A stretch of DNA of 64,000 bases, taken from a virus. The position numbers were made by a program, and so were the translations under genes. Shown piece by piece: positions 26,888 through 64,000 of this stretch (the first letter of the stretch is position 1; each line of letters begins with the position of its first letter). The DNA lies in the IMG/VR virus record IMGVR_UViG_3300027963_000061, positions 18,743 through 82,742 of that record. One strand, written 5' to 3'. The notes beneath the pieces were generated by a model. That model was not told the origin of the DNA. It did not search any database and saw only the letters and a program-made list of their open reading frames with translations.

Positions 26888-27685
26888 ATGAAAGAAAAAT
26901 CAGCAATCCCTATTAATCAAGAAGAAATTAATTCCTATCTTAAAGACATTCGTAGAATTAAAGTAATGACTCCTGAGAGGGAACGAGAACTGGCACAAAA
27001 GATGTTGTCAGGTAAATTGGCATTATGTGAGAAACAAGAAATCCAAAAAGAATTGGTTGAGGGAAACCTTAGGTTTGTTATAACCGTAAGTAAGCAGTAT
27101 CAGAATCAAGGTTTGGATTTACCTGACTTGATTGCTGAGGGTAATTATGGGTTATTAAAGGCAATTGAAAACTTTGATTGGTCAAAAAATTTAAGATTTA
27201 TTTCTTATGCGGTTTGGTGGGTTCGTCAATCAATATTACAATCTCTTAATGAGAATGCAAGAACCATCCGTCTTCCAGTAAATGTGGTTCAAGAGCTACA
27301 TAAAGCTAAAAAAGATTTGGAATTAACAGGTACAGAATTGCCTGATAAGTTCACAAACTTACCTAAAGTTATTAATTTGGAAAATCCATTAAATGAGGAT
27401 GGCGATACCTTGATGGACATGTTAAGTAATCCAAACGCCGAATTGGCTGATGCTGGATTGTCCACGGAACAAACCCTCAAAGATAAATTATTGGGAATGC
27501 TTGATGTGTTGGATGAAAGAGAAAAAATTATTATCCAAGATTATTTTGGGTTATCTGGTTCAACCAGAACTCTTGAAGATATTGGTAATGACTTTGATTT
27601 AACCAAAGAAAGGGTACGACAGATTAAAGAAAAAGCTCTCCGAAAATTACGAAACGAGACGAGTAGTTTGTTTGATTATATGTAA
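26888..27685 (+). CDS. Sigma-70 family factor (Bacteroidetes RpoD-like)
   Basis: The protein keeps the full small-RpoD layout: a region 1.2-like start (INSYLKDIRRIKVMTPERE), region 2 with LVEGNLRFVITVSKQY and ISYAVWWVRQSI, region 3, and region 4 with LEDIGNDFDLTKERVRQI and KEKALRKLR. It closely resembles the main sigma factor of Bacteroidetes but is slightly shorter. Phage copies may redirect host RNA polymerase to phage promoters, and the TATTTAT boxes in this window are candidates for its target. It is expressed from a host-type promoter, which would suit an early-to-late switch. Confidence 0.9.
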   Translation: MKEKSAIPINQEEINSYLKDIRRIKVMTPERERELAQKMLSGKLALCEKQEIQKELVEGNLRFVITVSKQYQNQGLDLPDLIAEGNYGLLKAIENFDWSKNLRFISYAVWWVRQSILQSLNENARTIRLPVNVVQELHKAKKDLELTGTELPDKFTNLPKVINLENPLNEDGDTLMDMLSNPNAELADAGLSTEQTLKDKLLGMLDVLDEREKIIIQDYFGLSGSTRTLEDIGNDFDLTKERVRQIKEKALRKLRNETSSLFDYM

Positions 27686-35670: not shown

Positions 35671-36591
35671 ATGAAAGATTACTACAAAATTTTAGAAGTT
35701 GAAGAGAATTCGTCCGATGACGACATAAAAAAAAGTTATAGGACTCTCTCAAAGAAATATCATCCAGATATGAATCCTGATGGCGCGGAGAAGTTTAAAG
35801 AGATTGCTGAGGCTTATGAAATATTGGGTGACAAGACAAAAAGAACTCAATACAACACATCAAAAAGTAATCCATACGCGGGCACACCATTCCAAGATAT
35901 ATTTAATACAATGTTCACTCAACAGAACAACCCTAACTTTAGACATAGAAAATCCGTACCTGATAAAATAATTAAGTTACAGGTTACTCCAATTGAATCA
36001 TACAATGGAAATGAGAAAACTTTATACTATGTAAGAGATTTAGGTTGTAATATTTGTAGTGGGTCTGGTGGTGACCAACAAGTTTGTACAACATGTAATG
36101 GAGCAGGATTCCAAGTAAGACAATTCGGAACAGGATTTATGGTTCAACAAGTAAGAACTCAATGTCAAACTTGTGGTGGTAAAGGATACACCTTAATTCA
36201 TAAATGTTATTATTGTGATGGTAGAGGAACAAAACCTACATCCAATGAAGTTAAAATAACATTACCTCTTGGGGTGGATAGTGGTCAGTATCTAAAACTA
36301 CAAGACTTAGGTGATTATAGAAATGGTGAGTTTGGTGACCTAATTGTTCAAATAGAAGTTATAAACAAAGATGGTTATGAAAAAATAAACAACGATTTGA
36401 TTTATAATCTTACGTTAAACTTAGATGAAATTCAACAAGACAAGTTTTTAATACCACATCCAGATGGTAACTTGAACATGGATGCACCAAAAGTATTTGA
36501 CACCTCAAGACCTTTAAGATTAAAAGGAAAAGGATATACTGGTGGGGATATGTATGTTAGACTGAATGTTAAGTTTGAAAGAACTACTTAA
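35671..36591 (+). CDS. dnaJ: DnaJ/Hsp40 chaperone
   Basis: A J domain (residues 1-65, with YHPD at 30-32), no long Gly/Phe region, four zinc-binding CxxCxGxG repeats (CNICSGSG, CTTCNGAG, CQTCGGKG, CYYCDGRG), and a C-terminal peptide-binding domain are all present. This is a type I DnaJ of 306 residues, slightly shorter than the cellular ones (about 370). It would recruit host DnaK, perhaps for virion assembly or replication. The start lies 2 nt from the divergent gene. Confidence 0.92.
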   Translation: MKDYYKILEVEENSSDDDIKKSYRTLSKKYHPDMNPDGAEKFKEIAEAYEILGDKTKRTQYNTSKSNPYAGTPFQDIFNTMFTQQNNPNFRHRKSVPDKIIKLQVTPIESYNGNEKTLYYVRDLGCNICSGSGGDQQVCTTCNGAGFQVRQFGTGFMVQQVRTQCQTCGGKGYTLIHKCYYCDGRGTKPTSNEVKITLPLGVDSGQYLKLQDLGDYRNGEFGDLIVQIEVINKDGYEKINNDLIYNLTLNLDEIQQDKFLIPHPDGNLNMDAPKVFDTSRPLRLKGKGYTGGDMYVRLNVKFERTT

Positions 36592-43619: not shown

Positions 43620-45772
<2,153 letters not shown>

Positions 45773-45773
<1 letters not shown>

Positions 45774-47701
45774 TGGCTAATGTAATTATATATCCACAAG
45801 GAAATGGTAGTATAACTGACCCATATGTGATGATGGACGACGGTACTGCAAAGATGGCGCTTGATGTTCAAAGTGGTCAAATTGTAATGTCATCTTCAAC
45901 AAATGCTAGTTCAACTACAATTGCCAATACTATTATTTCAAGTGGTACGTCAGTAACAGGCAACTTATTTGTTGGTGGTACCAAAATGATTGATAATACA
46001 GGTGTTTGGGTTGGTCCAACAGCTGGAATTAAAGGGGGTCAAGGTTCTCAAGGAGGACAAGGAGCACAAGGGGCAACAGGTTCTCAGGGTGCTACAGGTA
46101 ATCAAGGGGCTCAAGGTGGTCAAGGTTCTCAAGGAGGACAAGGAGCACAGGGGAACATAGGTAACACAGGAGCCCAAGGTAATATAGGAGCTCAAGGTAG
46201 TACAGGAGCTCAAGGTTCGCAAGGGGCTCAAGGGGCTGCAACAGGAGCTCAAGGTAACACAGGAGCTCAAGGAGCTCAAGGTTCTCAAGGGGCTCAAGGA
46301 GCTTCACAAGGTGCTCAAGGTGCTCAAGGTAATACAGGAGCTCAAGGGGCTCAAGGGGCTCAAGGTGCTTCACAAGGTGCACAGGGTAATGTAGGTAATA
46401 CAGGAGCTCAAGGTGCTCAAGGTGCTCAAGGTGCCTCACAAGGAGCCCAAGGAAATACAGGTAATACAGGAGCACAAGGAGCTCAAGGAGCCCAAGGTGC
46501 TTCAACAGGAGCTCAAGGAGCTATAGGTAATACAGGTGCTCAAGGTGCTCAAGGAGCTCAAGGGGCGTCAACAGGAGCTCAAGGAGCCCAAGGTGCTCAA
46601 GGTGGTACTGGTTCACAAGGTGCTCAAGGTGCTTCAACAGGGGCACAAGGAGCTCAAGGAGCACAAGGTGGTACTGGTTCACAAGGAGCTCAGGGTGCTG
46701 CAACAGGAGCTCAAGGAGCCCAAGGAGCACAAGGAGGAAAAGGTTCACAAGGAGCTCAGGGTGGTTCAACAGGTGCTCAAGGTGCTCAAGGAGCTCAAGG
46801 TGGTGGAGGTTCAACAGGTGCTCAAGGTGGTTCAACAGGAGCTCAAGGAGCTCAAGGAGCACAAGGAGGAGGAGGTTCAACAGGTGCTCAAGGTTCTGTA
46901 ACAGGAGCCCAAGGTGCTCAAGGTGGTGGAGGTTCAACAGGTGCTCAAGGTGGAAATACAGGAGCTCAAGGAGCACAAGGTGGTGGAGGTTCTGCAGGTG
47001 CGACAGGAGCTCAAGGTTCAACACCAGGTGCACCAGGAAATCAAGGAGCACAAGGCTCAACACAAGGAGCAACAGGTGCTGCGGGAAGTACTACAGGAGC
47101 TCAAGGTTCACAAGGTGGGGGAGGTCCAACAGGAGGTCAAGGAGCCCAAGGTTCTCAGGGAGGTGTAGGAGATGGTGGGAATACAGGCGCCACAGGTCCT
47201 ACGGGTCCTCAAGGCTCAACAGGAGCTCAAGGAGGTGGTGGTCCACAAGGTGCTCAAGGAGGTCCAGGTGGTCAAGGTCCTCAAGGAGCTCAAGGTTCAA
47301 CAGGACCTCAAGGTGCTCCAGGACCTCAAGGTGCTCAAGGTACTACAGGTCCTCCATCTGACATGAGACTGAAAGATAATATCAAAAAAATTGATAATGT
47401 TTATTCTAAAACAAAAAGTGTTGAAGGTGTTAGTTTTATATGGGACCATGAGCATACAAAAATTAAAGATGACAAGAGTATTGCAGTACAAGAAGCATTT
47501 AAAGGGCCAGCGATTGGTTTAATTGCTCAGCAAGTAGAAAATGTGGTTCCTGAATTAGTATTTACTGATGATGATGGATTTAAATCAATTGAATATGGTG
47601 CGATGGTAAGTCTTGGATTTGGTTCAATACAAGAACAACAAAAAATAATTGATTCTATTTATCAAAGAATAAACAAACTTAAAGAATTAATAGGTGGCTG
47701 A
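45773..47701 (+). CDS. Collagen-like tail fibre 2 with S74 chaperone tail, 642 aa
   Basis: The start overlaps the previous stop (TAATG). The N-terminal anchor ([20 protein letters not shown]) differs in sequence from fibre 1 but has the same length and ends in [15 protein letters not shown]. Collagen repeats of [14 protein letters not shown] type fill residues about 90-525; interruptions such as GAS, GAA and GGS recur at fixed spacing. The S74 chaperone starts at [10 protein letters not shown] and ends in a helix ([18 protein letters not shown]). There is no extra head domain, so the chaperone follows the collagen directly. Confidence 0.88.
46033..47355 (+). repeat. Collagen-type Gly-x-y coding repeats, fibre 2
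   Basis: Continuous Gly-x-y coding DNA built largely of GGAGCTCAA and GGTGCTCAA units, with short longer-period repeats spaced by ASTGAQGA or GSTGAQGG segments. Confidence 0.9.
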
Positions 47702-49547
47702 AAATATAATAATAACTCCAGCGTCGGGTAAATTTGATTTTTATGATACTGCTAGTACGGTAACTACTTTGGTTATTGAAACAGGGTCAGTTAAATTTAA
47801 AAGAGGAGCAACAACTTACTTGGCTTTTAATTCAACTCAGCCAACAATCACAATTCCAAGTGCTGATTTAAGACTAGGTACGTCTTTAATTAATACTTTT
47901 GGAACAATTATAGATAGTACAGGATGGAAAGGAGCCGCTCAACCAACAGGACCTCAAGGTAATACAGGAGCTCAAGGTAATACAGGTAATACAGGTGCTC
48001 AAGGAGCTCAAGGTAATACAGGTAATACAGGTGCTCAAGGTAATATAGGTAATACAGGTGCTCAAGGTAATACAGGTGCTCAAGGAGCTCAAGGTGGTAC
48101 AGGTGCCCAAGGTTCAACAGGTGCCCAAGGTTCAACAGGAGGACAAGGCTCTCAAGGAGGACAAGGTGCTCAAGGTGGTAAAGGTGCTCAAGGTTCAACA
48201 GGAGGTCAAGGTGCTCAAGGAGCTCAAGGAGGTACAGGTGCCCAAGGAGCTCAAGGTTCAACAGGAGGTCAAGGAGCTCAAGGAGCTCAAGGTGGTACAG
48301 GTGCTCAAGGTGCCCAAGGAGGAACAGGAGGTCAAGGAGCCCAAGGAGCTCAAGGAGGACAAGGAGCTCAAGGTGCTCAAGGAGGTACTGGAGGTCAAGG
48401 TGCTCAAGGTGCTCAAGGAGGACAAGGAGCCCAAGGAGGTAAAGGTACGACAGGAGGTCAAGGAGCTCAAGGTGCTCAAGGTGGTGGTGGAGCAATTGGA
48501 AACCAAGGAGCACAAGGAGGTCAAGGAGCTCAAGGTGCTCAAGGTGGTGGAGGTGCTACAGGTAACCAAGGTGCTCAAGGTGGACAAGGTTCACAAGGTA
48601 CTGCAGGTGGTGGCGGAGCAACAGGTAACCAAGGAGCACAAGGAGGTCAAGGAGCCCAAGGAGCCCAAGGTGGTGGCGGAGCAACAGGTAACCAAGGAGC
48701 ACAAGGAGGTCAAGGAGCCCAAGGAGCCCAAGGTGGTGGAGGAGCAACAGGAGCCCAAGGTTCACAAGGTGGACAAGGTTCACAAGGTGGTGGAGGAGCA
48801 ACAGGAGCCCAAGGTTCACAAGGTGGACAAGGTTCACAAGGTGGTGGAGGTTCAACAGGAGCCCAAGGAGCTCAAGGTTCACAAGGAGGTCAAGGTTCAC
48901 AAGGTGGACAAGGAGCTCAAGGAGGACAAGGTGCTCAAGGTTCACAAGGAGGACAAGGGTCTCAAGGTCCCGCTGGCGCAACAGGTGTTCCAGGTGGTTC
49001 ACCAACAGGTGCTACTGGACCAAGAGGTTCACAAGGAGGGCAGGGAGCTCAAGGTGGTGGAGGACCAACAGGGGCACAAGGTTCACAAGGTGGAGGAGGT
49101 GGACAAGGAGCTCAAGGTGGTGGAGGTCCTCAAGGTGGACAAGGAGCTCAAGGTGGTGCAGGTCCCCAAGGAGCTCAAGGTAACCAAGGAGCTCAAGGAT
49201 TAATTGGTCCTACAGGTCCTTCAGACATTAGATTTAAAAAAGACATTAGGCTTTTAAAAGATTCAATAAAGAAAATTAAAAAAATTAGAGGAGTTAGTTT
49301 CTTTTGGATTAAAGACGGTGAAAATCCTGATATAACAAAAAGAGATATTGGATTTATCGCTCAAGAATTGAAAGTAGCATTACCTGAGGTAGTAGTTGGA
49401 GAAGAACCAAAATACCTTACTGTAAAATATCAAGATATAGTGGCACTTTGTATTGAAGCAATTAAAGAACAAGCATTTGTAATAGAAACAAGTTTAAATA
49501 AGTTAGAAAAATTAGAATTAATAGCAAAAGAAAAGGGACTAGTTTAA
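47694..49547 (+). CDS. Collagen-like tail fibre 3 with S74 chaperone tail, 617 aa
   Basis: A GTG start at 47694 overlaps the previous stop by 8 nt and gives the MAENIIITP start, which parallels the other two fibres. A beta-rich anchor of about 85 residues is followed by Gly-x-y repeats dominated by [11 protein letters not shown]. The S74 tail begins [10 protein letters not shown] and ends in a coiled coil ([16 protein letters not shown]). The stop codon lies inside a bidirectional terminator shared with the convergent metallopeptidase gene. Confidence 0.88.
47945..49220 (+). repeat. Collagen-type Gly-x-y coding repeats, fibre 3
   Basis: Continuous Gly-x-y coding DNA with a dominant [11 protein letters not shown] period and several near-identical blocks (for example [19 protein letters not shown]), interrupted once by a [15 protein letters not shown] stretch. 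Confidence 0.9.
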
Positions 49548-60945: not shown

Positions 60946-60966
60946 TTAATTATTTTTTATATTTTG
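60935..60966 (+). promoter_or_regulatory. Bacteroidetes-type promoter, variant
   Basis: TTG at 60935-60937 and TATATTTTG at 60958-60966 are 20 nt apart, with one extra T in the -7 box. The ATG at 60970 follows after 3 nt. Confidence 0.5.
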
Positions 60967-60969
60967 TGT

Positions 60970-61509
60970 ATGTCAAATAAAGTATACACAAAGAAAGGAG
61001 ATGACGGAAGTACGAGTCTTTTGTCAGGAAGAAGAATCTCAAAAATGACTTCAGAAATTAAAGCTGTTGGGGTTTTAGATGAATTAAATTCATTCATAGG
61101 TTTATTAAGGAGTGAATTGGTATATTCTGAAGCTTCATTTGAAATGATTCAATGGAATCTATTCAATGCAGGGTCCACAATCATTAATGATAATAATGTT
61201 GAACTAACTGAGATAAATTCTGAGGATTCAAAAACTCTTGAAGATTGGATGGATAAGATGAATGAAGAACTTCCAGTATTAAAAAACTTTATATTACCCA
61301 AAGGAAATAGAGTTGTGAGTTTGGCTCACATTTGTAGAACGGTGTGTAGACGAGCTGAAATTACGGTTCTTGAATGTATTGTTCTTGACAACTTTGTCAA
61401 GTTAAATCCTATTACAATTTATTTAAACAGACTAAGTGATTTCTTTTTTGTTTTGGCAAGATACCTTTCACATAAAGATAATATTGAAGAAACTATTTGG
61501 AAAAACTAA
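60970..61509 (+). CDS. PduO-type ATP:cob(I)alamin adenosyltransferase
   Basis: The motifs of PduO-type enzymes are in order: VYTKKGDDGSTSLLSGRRIS at the start (ATP loop), GVLDELNSFIGLLRSEL, FILPKGNRVVSLAHICRTVC with the RxxxRRAE helix, and LNRLSDFFFVLARY. At 179 residues the size is normal. It would make adenosylcobalamin, the cofactor of class II ribonucleotide reductase and of several mutases. This is a rare cargo for a phage; no B12-dependent enzyme is in the window. Its stop overlaps the convergent DUF192 gene. Confidence 0.88.
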   Translation: MSNKVYTKKGDDGSTSLLSGRRISKMTSEIKAVGVLDELNSFIGLLRSELVYSEASFEMIQWNLFNAGSTIINDNNVELTEINSEDSKTLEDWMDKMNEELPVLKNFILPKGNRVVSLAHICRTVCRRAEITVLECIVLDNFVKLNPITIYLNRLSDFFFVLARYLSHKDNIEETIWKN

Positions 61510-61853
61510 AAGATATATTCTACAGAATCACCAGGTTGTATATTCAAGTCTTCACAAGTGCCACCTTCTAATTCTAAAACAATATTACCTCTTCCACAAT
61601 ATGACAGACAAGGGTCTTCATTACAAGGAGGACAATCAAAATGAATATTCACAATAACATTATTTTTTATTATGATGATATCAAGTGGTATGATACAATT
61701 CTTCATCCAAAAACATTGTTTCTTTCCACCCATTAAAAATAGCAGACCGTCAAACGTAGAGTCAAATCTCTTATACATCATACCGATGGCTTGAGATTTT
61801 TTATCTACTAAAGTTTTGACATTAAAAATATTATCATTAATTTTAACTTTCAT
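61506..61853 (-). CDS. DUF192 family protein, 115 aa
   Basis: The start ATG 61853 (MKVKINDNIFNVKTLVDKKS) is preferred because a TATTTATT box ends 4 nt upstream. The family motifs are AIGMMYKRFDSTFDGLLFLM, FWMKNCIIPLDIIII and GNIVLELEGGTCEDLNIQPG. DUF192 proteins are small beta proteins of unknown function. A CPPCNEDPCLSYCGRG insert gives four cysteines and may bind metal, which is unusual for the family. Confidence 0.8.
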   Translation of the reverse strand: MKVKINDNIFNVKTLVDKKSQAIGMMYKRFDSTFDGLLFLMGGKKQCFWMKNCIIPLDIIIIKNNVIVNIHFDCPPCNEDPCLSYCGRGNIVLELEGGTCEDLNIQPGDSVEYIF

Positions 61854-61857
61854 ATAT

Positions 61858-61865
61858 AATAAATA
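61858..61865 (-). promoter_or_regulatory. TATTTAT-class late promoter candidate
   Basis: TATTTATT on the minus strand ends 4 nt before the DUF192 start and overlaps the leader of the divergent Nudix gene. Confidence 0.45.
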
Positions 61866-61867
61866 CC

Positions 61868-62287
61868 ATGGATAAAAAAAGATACGTAGGAGTGGTGGTA
61901 AAACATCAAAACAAACTTCTTTTATGTAAAAGAAACAATTTGGGTTCATTCCCTGGAATGTGGTCAATACCTGGAGGTAAGTTAGAAGAGAATGAAACTA
62001 CTCAAGAAGGAGCCAAAAGAGAATTCTTTGAAGAGACAGCATTAAACATTAATGACGTTGAATTAACATTTGTTGGTTTAATACCACGACATACCAGAGA
62101 TGGTAAGAAGGTTAAAGGGTTCATGTATGTATATTTATTGAACGTAGAGTTTCCATTATATCCTGATTTATTAAATGCAATAGATGGGGAAGAACATACA
62201 GAGTGTGGGTACTTTACATTAGAAGAAATTAAACCTGAAACATCAGGTGAGTATTTTTATAAACTTGCTGAAATAATTCTATCATGA
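61868..62287 (+). CDS. Nudix hydrolase, 139 aa
   Basis: The Nudix box is complete: GGKLEENETTQEGAKREFFE followed by ETAL gives G-x5-E-x7-RE-x2-EE. The surrounding MWSIPGGKL and the VVVKHQNKLLLCKRNN start are typical of MutT-like or 8-oxo-dGTPase/NUDT1-like enzymes. The substrate is not readable. The stop overlaps the ATG of a small membrane protein. Only 14 nt separate it from the divergent DUF192 start. Confidence 0.88.
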   Translation: MDKKRYVGVVVKHQNKLLLCKRNNLGSFPGMWSIPGGKLEENETTQEGAKREFFEETALNINDVELTFVGLIPRHTRDGKKVKGFMYVYLLNVEFPLYPDLLNAIDGEEHTECGYFTLEEIKPETSGEYFYKLAEIILS

Positions 62288-62400
62288 AAATATTATTCAT
62301 TGTTTGGTTTGTAGTGTCAATTGTTGCCAATGTATGGGCATACATTCATATGACCAAAAAAGCGAAAGAAGAAATAAAAAAATTAAATAATTTAAAATGA
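62284..62400 (+). CDS. Mini membrane protein, 38 aa
   Basis: MKILFIVWFVVSIVANVWAY is one transmembrane helix, followed by a Lys/Glu-rich tail (TKKAKEEIKKLNNLK). It overlaps the Nudix stop (ATGA) and the next start by 4 nt, so three genes are coupled. Confidence 0.5.
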   Translation: MKILFIVWFVVSIVANVWAYIHMTKKAKEEIKKLNNLK

Positions 62401-62504
62401 ATCTATTAATTGGTATAGGTATAGTAATGTTTATTTTTGCTGTGTACTGTTGTATTGACATGAACAGACAATTAAAAAAAATTGTTGAAAAACTTGATAA
62501 TTAA
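62397..62504 (+). CDS. Mini membrane protein, 35 aa
   Basis: MNLLIGIGIVMFIFAVYCCI is one transmembrane helix with two cysteines, followed by a basic/acidic tail (RQLKKIVEKLDN). It is coupled to the preceding 38-residue protein, and both have the same build. It is the last protein gene in the window. Confidence 0.5.
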   Translation: MNLLIGIGIVMFIFAVYCCIDMNRQLKKIVEKLDN

Positions 62505-62524
62505 AAAAAAAGTTATTACCTTTG
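62494..62524 (+). promoter_or_regulatory. Tandem host-type promoter P1
   Basis: TTG at 62494-62496 and TACCTTTG at 62517-62524 are separated by 20 nt; GTAAGAC follows as in P4. Confidence 0.7.
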
Positions 62525-62547
62525 TAAGACTTTGATGAAAATGGAGA

Positions 62548-62555
62548 TATTTATA
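62548..62555 (+). promoter_or_regulatory. TATTTAT-class box without a gene
   Basis: TATTTATA lies within the P1 leader, followed by a CACCT-GAAA-AGGTG hairpin (62561-62574). No start codon follows, so it could give a late version of the non-coding transcripts or be chance. Confidence 0.3.
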
Positions 62556-62604
62556 TTTCCACACCTGAAAAGGTGAACATCCCCAAAAAAAAGTTTCATA
62601 AAAA

Positions 62605-62636
62605 TTTGACGGTGTCAAAACTGTTGATTACCTTTG
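62605..62636 (+). promoter_or_regulatory. Tandem host-type promoter P2
   Basis: TTTG at 62605-62608 and TACCTTTG at 62629-62636 are separated by 20 nt. The whole segment from TTTGAC to GAGAC is highly similar to P4. Confidence 0.8.
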
Positions 62637-62642
62637 TGAGAC

Positions 62643-62700
62643 AACCTTATCCCACAAGTGAAAAGATTGAGAGATTTCAGTAACTTGTGGGGTTTTTTAT
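62643..62700 (+). ncRNA. Predicted short RNA from P2 ending in a hairpin terminator
   Basis: A transcript starting about 7 nt after the P2 box would consist almost only of a hairpin: CCCACAAGT (62651-62659) pairs with ACTTGTGGG (62683-62691) around a 23-nt purine-rich loop. It would be about 58 nt long. It could be an independent small RNA or a leader. Confidence 0.45.
62651..62698 (+). terminator. Terminator hairpin downstream of P2
   Basis: A 9-bp perfect stem with a 23-nt loop is followed by G and six T residues. The T-run makes it a likely terminator of P1/P2 transcripts or an attenuator ahead of the tRNA. Confidence 0.7.
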
Positions 62701-62712
62701 CGGATGTTGTTT

Positions 62713-62726
62713 AGCTCTTTAAAAAT
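62713..62726 (+). promoter_or_regulatory. boxA-like antitermination element 1
   Basis: AGCTCTTTAAAAAT matches the E. coli rRNA boxA, TGCTCTTTAACAAT, at 12 of 14 positions. It lies between the P2 leader hairpin and the structured element leading to the tRNA. Confidence 0.5.
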
Positions 62727-62728
62727 TT

Positions 62729-62796
62729 GATTACACCCGCTGGTACAACCAGCGCATGACGTGGATAGGTGACCGTGGGGAAGTGGGATTGTAATC
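62729..62796 (+). ncRNA. Structured RNA element between boxA and tRNA
   Basis: GATTACA (62729-62735) pairs with TGTAATC (62790-62796), enclosing a perfect hairpin CGCTGG-TACAA-CCAGCG (62738-62754) and a purine-rich segment with GTGGATAGGTGACCGTGGGG. It has no stop-free frame of note. It may be a processing stem, a riboswitch-like fold or a small RNA. Confidence 0.45.
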
Positions 62797-62808
62797 ATTA
62801 AGATATAT

Positions 62809-62880
62809 CGTGAGGTAGAGCAGTGGTAGCTCGGAAGGCTCATAACCTTTAGGTCGCGAGTTCGAATCTCGCCCTCGCAA
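62809..62880 (+). tRNA. Initiator tRNA-fMet (CAU)
   Basis: A complete cloverleaf is present: acceptor CGTGAGG/CCTCGCA, D-stem GAGC/GCTC, anticodon stem GAAGG/CCTTT with loop CTCATAA, and T-arm GCGAG-TTCGAAT-CTCGC. The unpaired C1-A72 and the A11-U24 pair mark a bacterial initiator tRNA, not an elongator Met tRNA. The anticodon stem has two G-C pairs next to the loop where E. coli has three. CCA is not encoded. It could adjust initiation on phage messages, many of which appear leaderless. Confidence 0.88.
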
Positions 62881-62889
62881 CAAAAAAGA

Positions 62890-62921
62890 TTTGACGAATT
62901 GAAAAGTTCTTCTTATCTTTG
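62890..62921 (+). promoter_or_regulatory. Tandem host-type promoter P3
   Basis: TTTG at 62890-62893 and TATCTTTG at 62914-62921 are separated by 20 nt, starting 10 nt after the tRNA. Confidence 0.75.
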
Positions 62922-62924
62922 AAA

Positions 62925-63010
62925 AACAAACGACGAGAGTTGTTTGTTCTTTGAAATGATAACCGAATAAACCTGTCCTATTACGAGTAGGGGGTCTTAA
63001 GAATTATTCG
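62925..63010 (+). ncRNA. Predicted structured RNA from P3
   Basis: AACAAACGAC pairs with GTTGTTTGTT (one G-T) around a GAGA tetraloop (62925-62948). Then a second fold has CGAATAA (62964-62970) with TTATTCG (63004-63010) and an inner CCTA/TAGG hairpin. A boxA-like TTCTTTGAAAT overlaps the end of the first stem. The RNA may end here or run on into the next unit. Confidence 0.45.
62946..62957 (+). promoter_or_regulatory. boxA-like element 2
   Basis: GTTCTTTGAAAT follows the P3 leader hairpin in the same relative place as the first boxA-like site after P2. TTCTTTGA-type sequences are common in rRNA leaders of Bacteroidetes. Confidence 0.45.
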
Positions 63011-63044
63011 TTGTATTATCGGCTCAAAAAAACTTACAAAAAGA

Positions 63045-63076
63045 TTTGACAGTTTCAAAACTTTCATTTACCTTTG
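63045..63076 (+). promoter_or_regulatory. Tandem host-type promoter P4
   Basis: TTTG at 63045-63048 and TACCTTTG at 63069-63076 are separated by 20 nt; the segment is highly similar to P2 over more than 40 nt. It is the promoter nearest to the long structured RNA. Confidence 0.8.
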
Positions 63077-63086
63077 TAAGACAAGT

Positions 63087-63146
63087 GAAGAGAAGGGGTA
63101 GTAAAGGTTCCAAGTTTACTTGGTCGTAAAGTTTCCCCTTTTCTTC
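63087..63146 (+). ncRNA. Long leader hairpin after P4
   Basis: GAAGAGAAGGGG (63087-63098) pairs with CCCCTTTTCTTC (63135-63146) in 12 bp with one G-T. An inner hairpin, CCAAG-TTTA-CTTGG, caps it. It may be a processing stem like those that flank rRNAs. Confidence 0.6.
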
Positions 63147-63172
63147 ATTCTTTAAAAAGTTCTTTGAATAAA
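63147..63172 (+). promoter_or_regulatory. Double boxA-like element 3
   Basis: ATTCTTTAAAAA and AGTTCTTTGAATAA follow each other directly after the P4 leader hairpin and ahead of the long structured RNA. Confidence 0.45.
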
Positions 63173-64000
63173 AATATTGTCTGTTCAGAATGTTTGATGA
63201 TGAGACCTTCGGGTTGATTTTGAGTAACAAACTGATAAGATATATTGGGCGGTCTATAGTCCATAAAATAAACCATGAAAGTGGTATAAAGTGATTTGTT
63301 CTTGATTGGAACGGTTGCGGCTTCGGAAACGGAGCTCGAGTAGACAAACGAGATATCATCTGACCTTTAGTATTGAGGGTAACACTGTAGGGAAAGTGGT
63401 TAGATGACTAAGCGATGTGGGTCGTTTAGTTGAGGTGGGAACACCGATAAGAATAACTCGTAGGGCTGTTGTAAGAAGTATGGTCGTCCAACTATACAAT
63501 TGCGGAGTTCAATATTAGAGTAGATTTAAAACCGAAAGGTAAGAGTTCGTACAGGTGGTGCTGTTGTTCTCCTTATCAGAGACCTACCAAGGTTTCAGTT
63601 ATGAAATAGACTCAAAGTATGGAGGTCGGGAGACTTCAAGGTGTAGTTCAGCATTGTCTCGTTCAAAAGATGGGGCATCTGGTTTGACGAACCGCTACAT
63701 CTATCATCCACAAATCAAACTTTTACTTTCAAATGGTGAAAACTAAAATAAATAAAAGGAAAAGTGTTCGTCAGTCGTGGTAGACAGGTCACTACTTAGT
63801 CATGAGTTGTTCATGGCCGTAAAGGGTCCCAAACCCGATACGATTGTTTTGAAAGTTCTCTAATCCCGCAAGGATGAGTTTGGGTGGCAACCTAGAAGAG
63901 TGATGAGTAAGAATAGAGTATATTACGACTTTAGGATTGGTTAATCTAATTGACCGTGACTGAGAGGTACTTCTCAAAAGGAAGTGGAAATCGGAGGAAA
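63173..64000 (+). ncRNA. Long structured RNA, at least 0.8 kb, open at window end (giant ornate RNA candidate)
   Basis: No credible protein gene is found here. The plus strand holds many stable hairpins: GACC-TTCG-GGTT at 63204, a 10-bp stem GACTAAGCGA/TCGTTTAGTT at 63406-63431, GGTG-GGAA-CACC at 63434, ACC-GAAA-GGT at 63531, a 7-bp stem around ACCA at 63580-63597, GAGGTC-GGGA-GACTTC at 63622, CATGA/TCATG at 63801 and GGT-GGCA-ACC near 63874. UUCG and GNRA loops appear on the plus strand only, which sets the direction. Base composition is richer in G than the coding regions. Size, a nearby tRNA and phage location recall GOLLD and ROOL RNAs, but I cannot show membership. Confidence 0.6.

Follow-up and report, generated by a model that had tools for sequence, protein, structure and literature searches.

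A phage GOLLD RNA preceded by an rRNA-type, boxA-like leader in an island of stable RNAs

The RNA island and its surroundings

The DNA analysed here (the window) comprises 64,000 nucleotides and represents the last 64 kb of a virus record of 82,742 bp; its position 64000 is the end of that record. Close to this end an island of stable RNAs is found, which contains a tRNA-Met unit, two small RNAs and a copy of the giant RNA GOLLD; all features given below are on the plus strand unless noted otherwise. Genes for a cobalamin adenosyltransferase, a DUF192 protein and a NUDIX hydrolase (60964–62287) adjoin the island, and a NUDIX-like gene seems to be kept at the same place in a related locus (L301). 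Elsewhere in the window, phage genes at 26888–27685 and 35671–36591 encode a sigma-70 family factor (regions 1.2, 2 and 4) and DnaJ, and three consecutive long collagen-like proteins with repeats are encoded at 43620–49547.

The tRNA-Met (CAT) at 62809–62881, identified with ARAGORN and Rfam, is the neighbouring tRNA mentioned in the first-pass annotation of this DNA; it is present upstream of GOLLD in 23 of 52 relatives. Its unit begins with a match to the Bacteroidota-type promoter pattern TTTG-N20-TAnnTTTG (62605–62636), followed by a leader hairpin read from the sequence, CCCACAAG/CTTGTGGG (62651–62692), and by a boxA-like motif, GCTCTTTAAAA (62714–62724), which matches exactly GYTCTTTAANA, the gamma-proteobacterial boxA consensus (PMC5725501). 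The interval between this motif and the tRNA contains an unclassified conserved small RNA element, designated A (62729–62796; 15 sequences), with a core, CAACCAG[C/A]GCATGAC[G/T]TGGAT, that is near-invariant in 15 loci. Downstream of the tRNA another promoter of the same pattern (62890–62921) and the boxA-like motif GTTCTTTGA (62946–62954), with the first 15 nt identical to a host 16S leader, precede a second unclassified conserved small RNA, B (62958–63022). This RNA was recognized from 19 distinct sequences by its core hairpin ACCTGTCCYAT..RTRGGRGGT, which covaries in 16 sequences; some relatives possess an extra hairpin. Neither element A nor small RNA B yielded an Rfam match at E ≤ 1. Exchanges which keep base pairs were found in both and suggest, at modest strength, that A and B are structured. 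In one relative (L012) the site of small RNA B upstream of GOLLD is occupied by another unit led by a boxA, which is about 130 nt long and seems to be structured.

GOLLD and its two domains

The whole window was compared by cmscan with all 4227 Rfam families, and the region 62300–64000 also at E ≤ 1. Only two matches were obtained in the window, the tRNA at 62809–62880 and GOLLD (RF02032) at 63639–64000, the latter with 263.3 bits, well above the curated cutoff of 150 (E = 6.9e-74, model positions 1–370 of 416). ROOL, OLE and HEARO gave no match at E ≤ 1 in 62300–64000, where GOLLD and the tRNA were the only hits. Since the record stops at 64000, the RNA is truncated and the last approximately 46 model positions are missing; relatives are complete at 826–927 nt, counted from boxA on. 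The first-pass annotation had placed the element at 63173–64000; its end is the end of the record, and upstream the unit reaches further, with leader elements present already from about 63045.

The description of this stretch as gene-free and structured on the plus strand proved to be real, since open reading frames, a shuffle test and the consensus of 42 sequences agree. The longest reading frame in 63173–64000 has 63 aa on the plus strand and 111 aa on the minus strand (63024–63359, mostly inside the leader); all reading frames there lack credibility and a protein gene was ruled out. The plus strand folds at −231.7 kcal/mol, compared to a mean of −209.4 kcal/mol for dinucleotide shuffles (z = −3.4; none of 20 shuffles as good), and the minus strand does not fold better than its shuffles (z = −1.0). 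Support for 33 helices on the window's plus strand comes from the consensus of the 42 sequences. GNRA loops, as had been claimed, are present at 63277–63280 (GAAA), 63326–63329 (GAAA), 63438–63441 (GGAA), 63534–63537 (GAAA) and 63628–63631 (GGGA). UUCG loops had been over-counted: one hairpin capped in this way exists (about 63204–63216), and the CUUCGG near 63321 forms one side of a stem capped by GAAA and not a UUCG loop.

The Rfam model RF02032 is restricted to the conserved 3' part of GOLLD and omits the 5' domain. A DNA search with 63150–64000 among 50,697 phage records detected two phages from metagenomes, 634 and 642 kb in size, with 70% and 68% identity, respectively, over part of the 5' half. 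Both huge phages (L002 and L003) carry a complete GOLLD of the window's type at the matching site, in a position between tRNA genes. Two pattern scans of IMG/VR contributed about 80 further loci. When 42 sequences with both GOLLD halves were aligned (alignment A1), a consensus fold of 198 pairs resulted, and compensatory changes, one or more per pair, were seen in 141 of them. For the 102 pairs of the 5' domain, pairing holds in 97.1% of the cells, and double changes are seen in 76. When one side was slid by 1–3 columns, 36–42% of the cells were paired and 25–39 pairs had double changes, and shuffling of partners gave at most 83% and 60 pairs; both controls are limited by the relatedness of the sequences and by the derivation of the structure from the same alignment. 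The 3' domain is likewise supported by covariation in A1.

On the evidence of homology to the two huge phages and to most IMG/VR relatives, together with covariation, the segment 63247–63638 is a genuine GOLLD 5' domain outside the Rfam model; it is preceded by a variable 5' segment (63169–63246 in A1), which carries the UUCG-capped hairpin and is missing in about half of the relatives. The 3' domain, cut by the end of the record, extends over 63639–64000. It appears close to certain from these comparisons that the region 63173–64000 is a phage copy of the known GOLLD RNA, which is about 800 nt long and built of two domains, the 5' region being the less conserved; here it occurs in a virus record and near a tRNA. 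The first-pass annotation had rightly named GOLLD for comparison, but had seen no obvious match to known families; this does not apply to the 3' half, and the part which it could not recognize is the 5' domain omitted from the model. A giant RNA of a new class unrelated to GOLLD, as it had held possible, is refuted, also by the annotation's own criterion of a strong match to a known RNA: the 5' half on its own has no Rfam match, but the model spans just the conserved 3' region, the 3' half matches it over positions 1–370, and both halves co-occur in the 42 aligned relatives. Nor is the copy an unusually divergent member, as relatives are common in IMG/VR, and the covarying pairs among homologues for which the annotation had proposed to look are present.

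Several predicted contacts can be compared with those of GOLLD env-38, which Kretsch et al. (2025; PMC12286853) describe as a hollow cage of 14 subunits, encoded downstream of a tRNA-Met, with the 5' domain as cap, the 3' domain as ring and a disordered linker inside. Contacts reported there include a pseudoknot, L22-J17/22, and a kissing contact, B8, with a GC/CG switch. In the 42 sequences, linker position 63759 pairs without exception with hairpin loop position 63829 (GC in 27, AU in 8, CG in 7), which fits the pseudoknot. The hairpin loop at 63867–63871, which would correspond to L21a, reads GC, which is self-complementary, in 40 of the sequences; the two from the huge phages have CG. This exchange fits the B8 switch. 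In both cases the loops were named by position. The GAAA loop at 63277–63280 is invariant in 42 of 42 sequences, and two more long-range contacts covary (63417–63420 with 63708–63711, and 63790 with 63958).

With env-38 as published, the window's RNA shares the 3' domain, matched at 263 bits, and a 5' domain that is separate and measures about 400 nt, as well as the tRNA-Met upstream, the pseudoknot, the GAAA loop and the GC/CG loop switch. It differs in being truncated, and the 5' domains were likened by description, not by sequence. ROOL, another giant, cage-forming phage RNA near tRNAs (PMC12286853), has a different sequence and structure.

Promoter-boxA leaders

GOLLD itself is preceded by a promoter of the same Bacteroidota type (63045–63076), from which transcription would start near 63083, by a leader hairpin GAAGAGAAGGGG/CCCCTTTTCTTC (63087–63146), which is kept in relatives with different sequence, and by the boxA-like motif GTTCTTTGA (63159–63167). 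The promoter pattern occurs ten times on the window's plus strand, where only three pairs of promoter and boxA-like motif (≤ 130 nt apart) were found. All three are in the island, within 0.6 kb, and precede the tRNA-Met unit, small RNA B and GOLLD. The phage sigma factor might be the reader of the TAnnTTTG promoters.

The motif, as GTTCTTT[GA]A, is present upstream of GOLLD in 62 of 64 non-redundant loci, compared with 2 of 65 when downstream sequence of the same loci served as control; L245 and L256, which are false pattern hits, were excluded from these counts. Compared with expectation from composition, it was found in 51 of 52 non-redundant loci (3.0 expected) and, in a second set of loci, in 43 of 47 (1.4 expected). 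The four loci without a hit in the latter set comprise two that do not represent GOLLD, one whose motif lies shortly beyond the stretch scanned and one with a degenerate copy of it. The huge phage L003 has no boxA motif, and its GOLLD follows closely behind a tRNA. These counts refer to loci of Bacteroidota phages; targeted sequence patterns for other GOLLD lineages gave nothing or chance hits. No GOLLD copies were found in a search of plasmids or in two Lactobacillus phages, and none in 198 Bacteroidota genomes, a search in which the positive control gave no signal either.

In Bacteroidota genomes the motif is present in 17 of 24 host 16S leaders, several of them with the same promoter type ahead, and also before 23S, where one exact form of it mainly lies. 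Phage contexts diverge from host contexts after position 9. Several loci agree beyond the core; for example, GTTCTTTGAAATGAT is present in the window and in one host 16S leader. The GOLLD leader resembles that of an rRNA operon in the order of promoter, hairpin and boxA, in the boxA core located after the promoter and before an untranslated RNA, and in the promoter type; it differs in that, in the window, leaders of this kind stand before a giant phage RNA, a tRNA unit and small RNAs and not before 16S and 23S. From the types of promoter and boxA we infer Bacteroidota as the host phylum; the origin from a Bacteroidetes phage suggested in the first-pass annotation is in line with these signals. 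For env-38 a promoter-boxA leader is not mentioned in the available text of PMC12286853.

A possible role of Nus factors in cage production

The architecture and the conservation of the leader are read directly from the sequences. A role of Nus antitermination at the GOLLD boxA is a supported hypothesis by analogy with rRNA of E. coli, where a Nus complex at boxA is described to block Rho and to aid RNA folding (PMC5725501; PMC6614801). We consider it quite probable that the locus as a whole is a GOLLD RNA of a Bacteroidota phage with an rRNA-like boxA leader, which employs host Nus antitermination and assembles into cages. Host RNA polymerase would start near 63083, and the nascent boxA would be bound by host NusB and S10 (NusE) with other Nus factors. 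The polymerase would thereby become resistant to Rho, which would otherwise stop the untranslated GOLLD transcript of about 0.9 kb. The Nus complex may also, by the rRNA analogy, help distant parts of the RNA to pair. The finished RNA could then form a cage of 14 subunits like that described for env-38, with 63247–63638 as cap, the sequence from 63639 onward as ring and an A/U-rich linker (about 63703–63757) inside; tRNAs or ribosomes have been suggested in the literature as cage contents.

Alternatively, GTTCTTTGA could serve GOLLD as a structural element or as a site of processing, and its likeness to rRNA leaders a result of convergence. The motif is near-invariant, so that covariation cannot separate a protein site from a structural role, and RNAalifold predicts that its UCUU pairs with a segment of the 3' domain that does not vary. 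This interpretation appears unlikely, however, since the same motif heads the tRNA unit and small RNA B, both without GOLLD, since insertions and deletions make the spacing between it and the 5' domain vary by about 80 nt, and since host rRNA leaders are matched, in several loci past the core. Still less likely, in our opinion, is a mainly decoy function, in which abundant phage leaders would soak up NusB-S10 and host rRNA synthesis would fall in favour of the phage. Three boxA leaders within one 0.6-kb island would suit such a function, as would the abundance of the related cage RNA ROOL, which can equal that of 16S rRNA (PMC12286853); but each boxA forms an immediate part of the leader of its own stable RNA, an arrangement that action in cis would predict.

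Antitermination in cis is our preferred explanation. It has a partial counterpart in suhB (PMC5725501), where a boxA-type signal is also used outside rRNA; there, a protein-coding gene is repressed via boxA, whereas the transcripts of the window are non-coding and antitermination is proposed. Non-coding RNAs were left out of the 2017 search for boxA targets (PMC5725501), and in the literature library searched no relevant report on a link between GOLLD and boxA was found. The GOLLD family is known; the aspect that looks new is the rRNA-type promoter-boxA leader on it.

To our knowledge, neither the function of GOLLD cages nor the mechanism of their expression is known. A conserved leader of the rRNA type offers a concrete account of how a long untranslated phage RNA may be produced in bulk and folded, and small RNAs A and B provide new handles on the role of the island. 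It seems rather likely that Bacteroidota phages run GOLLD, tRNA and two or more unclassified small RNAs as rRNA operons in miniature, using the Nus/boxA and RNA-folding machinery of the host for bulk output of cages. Most work on boxA control has concerned rRNA and a small number of protein-coding genes; such control would thus extend to non-coding RNAs of phages.
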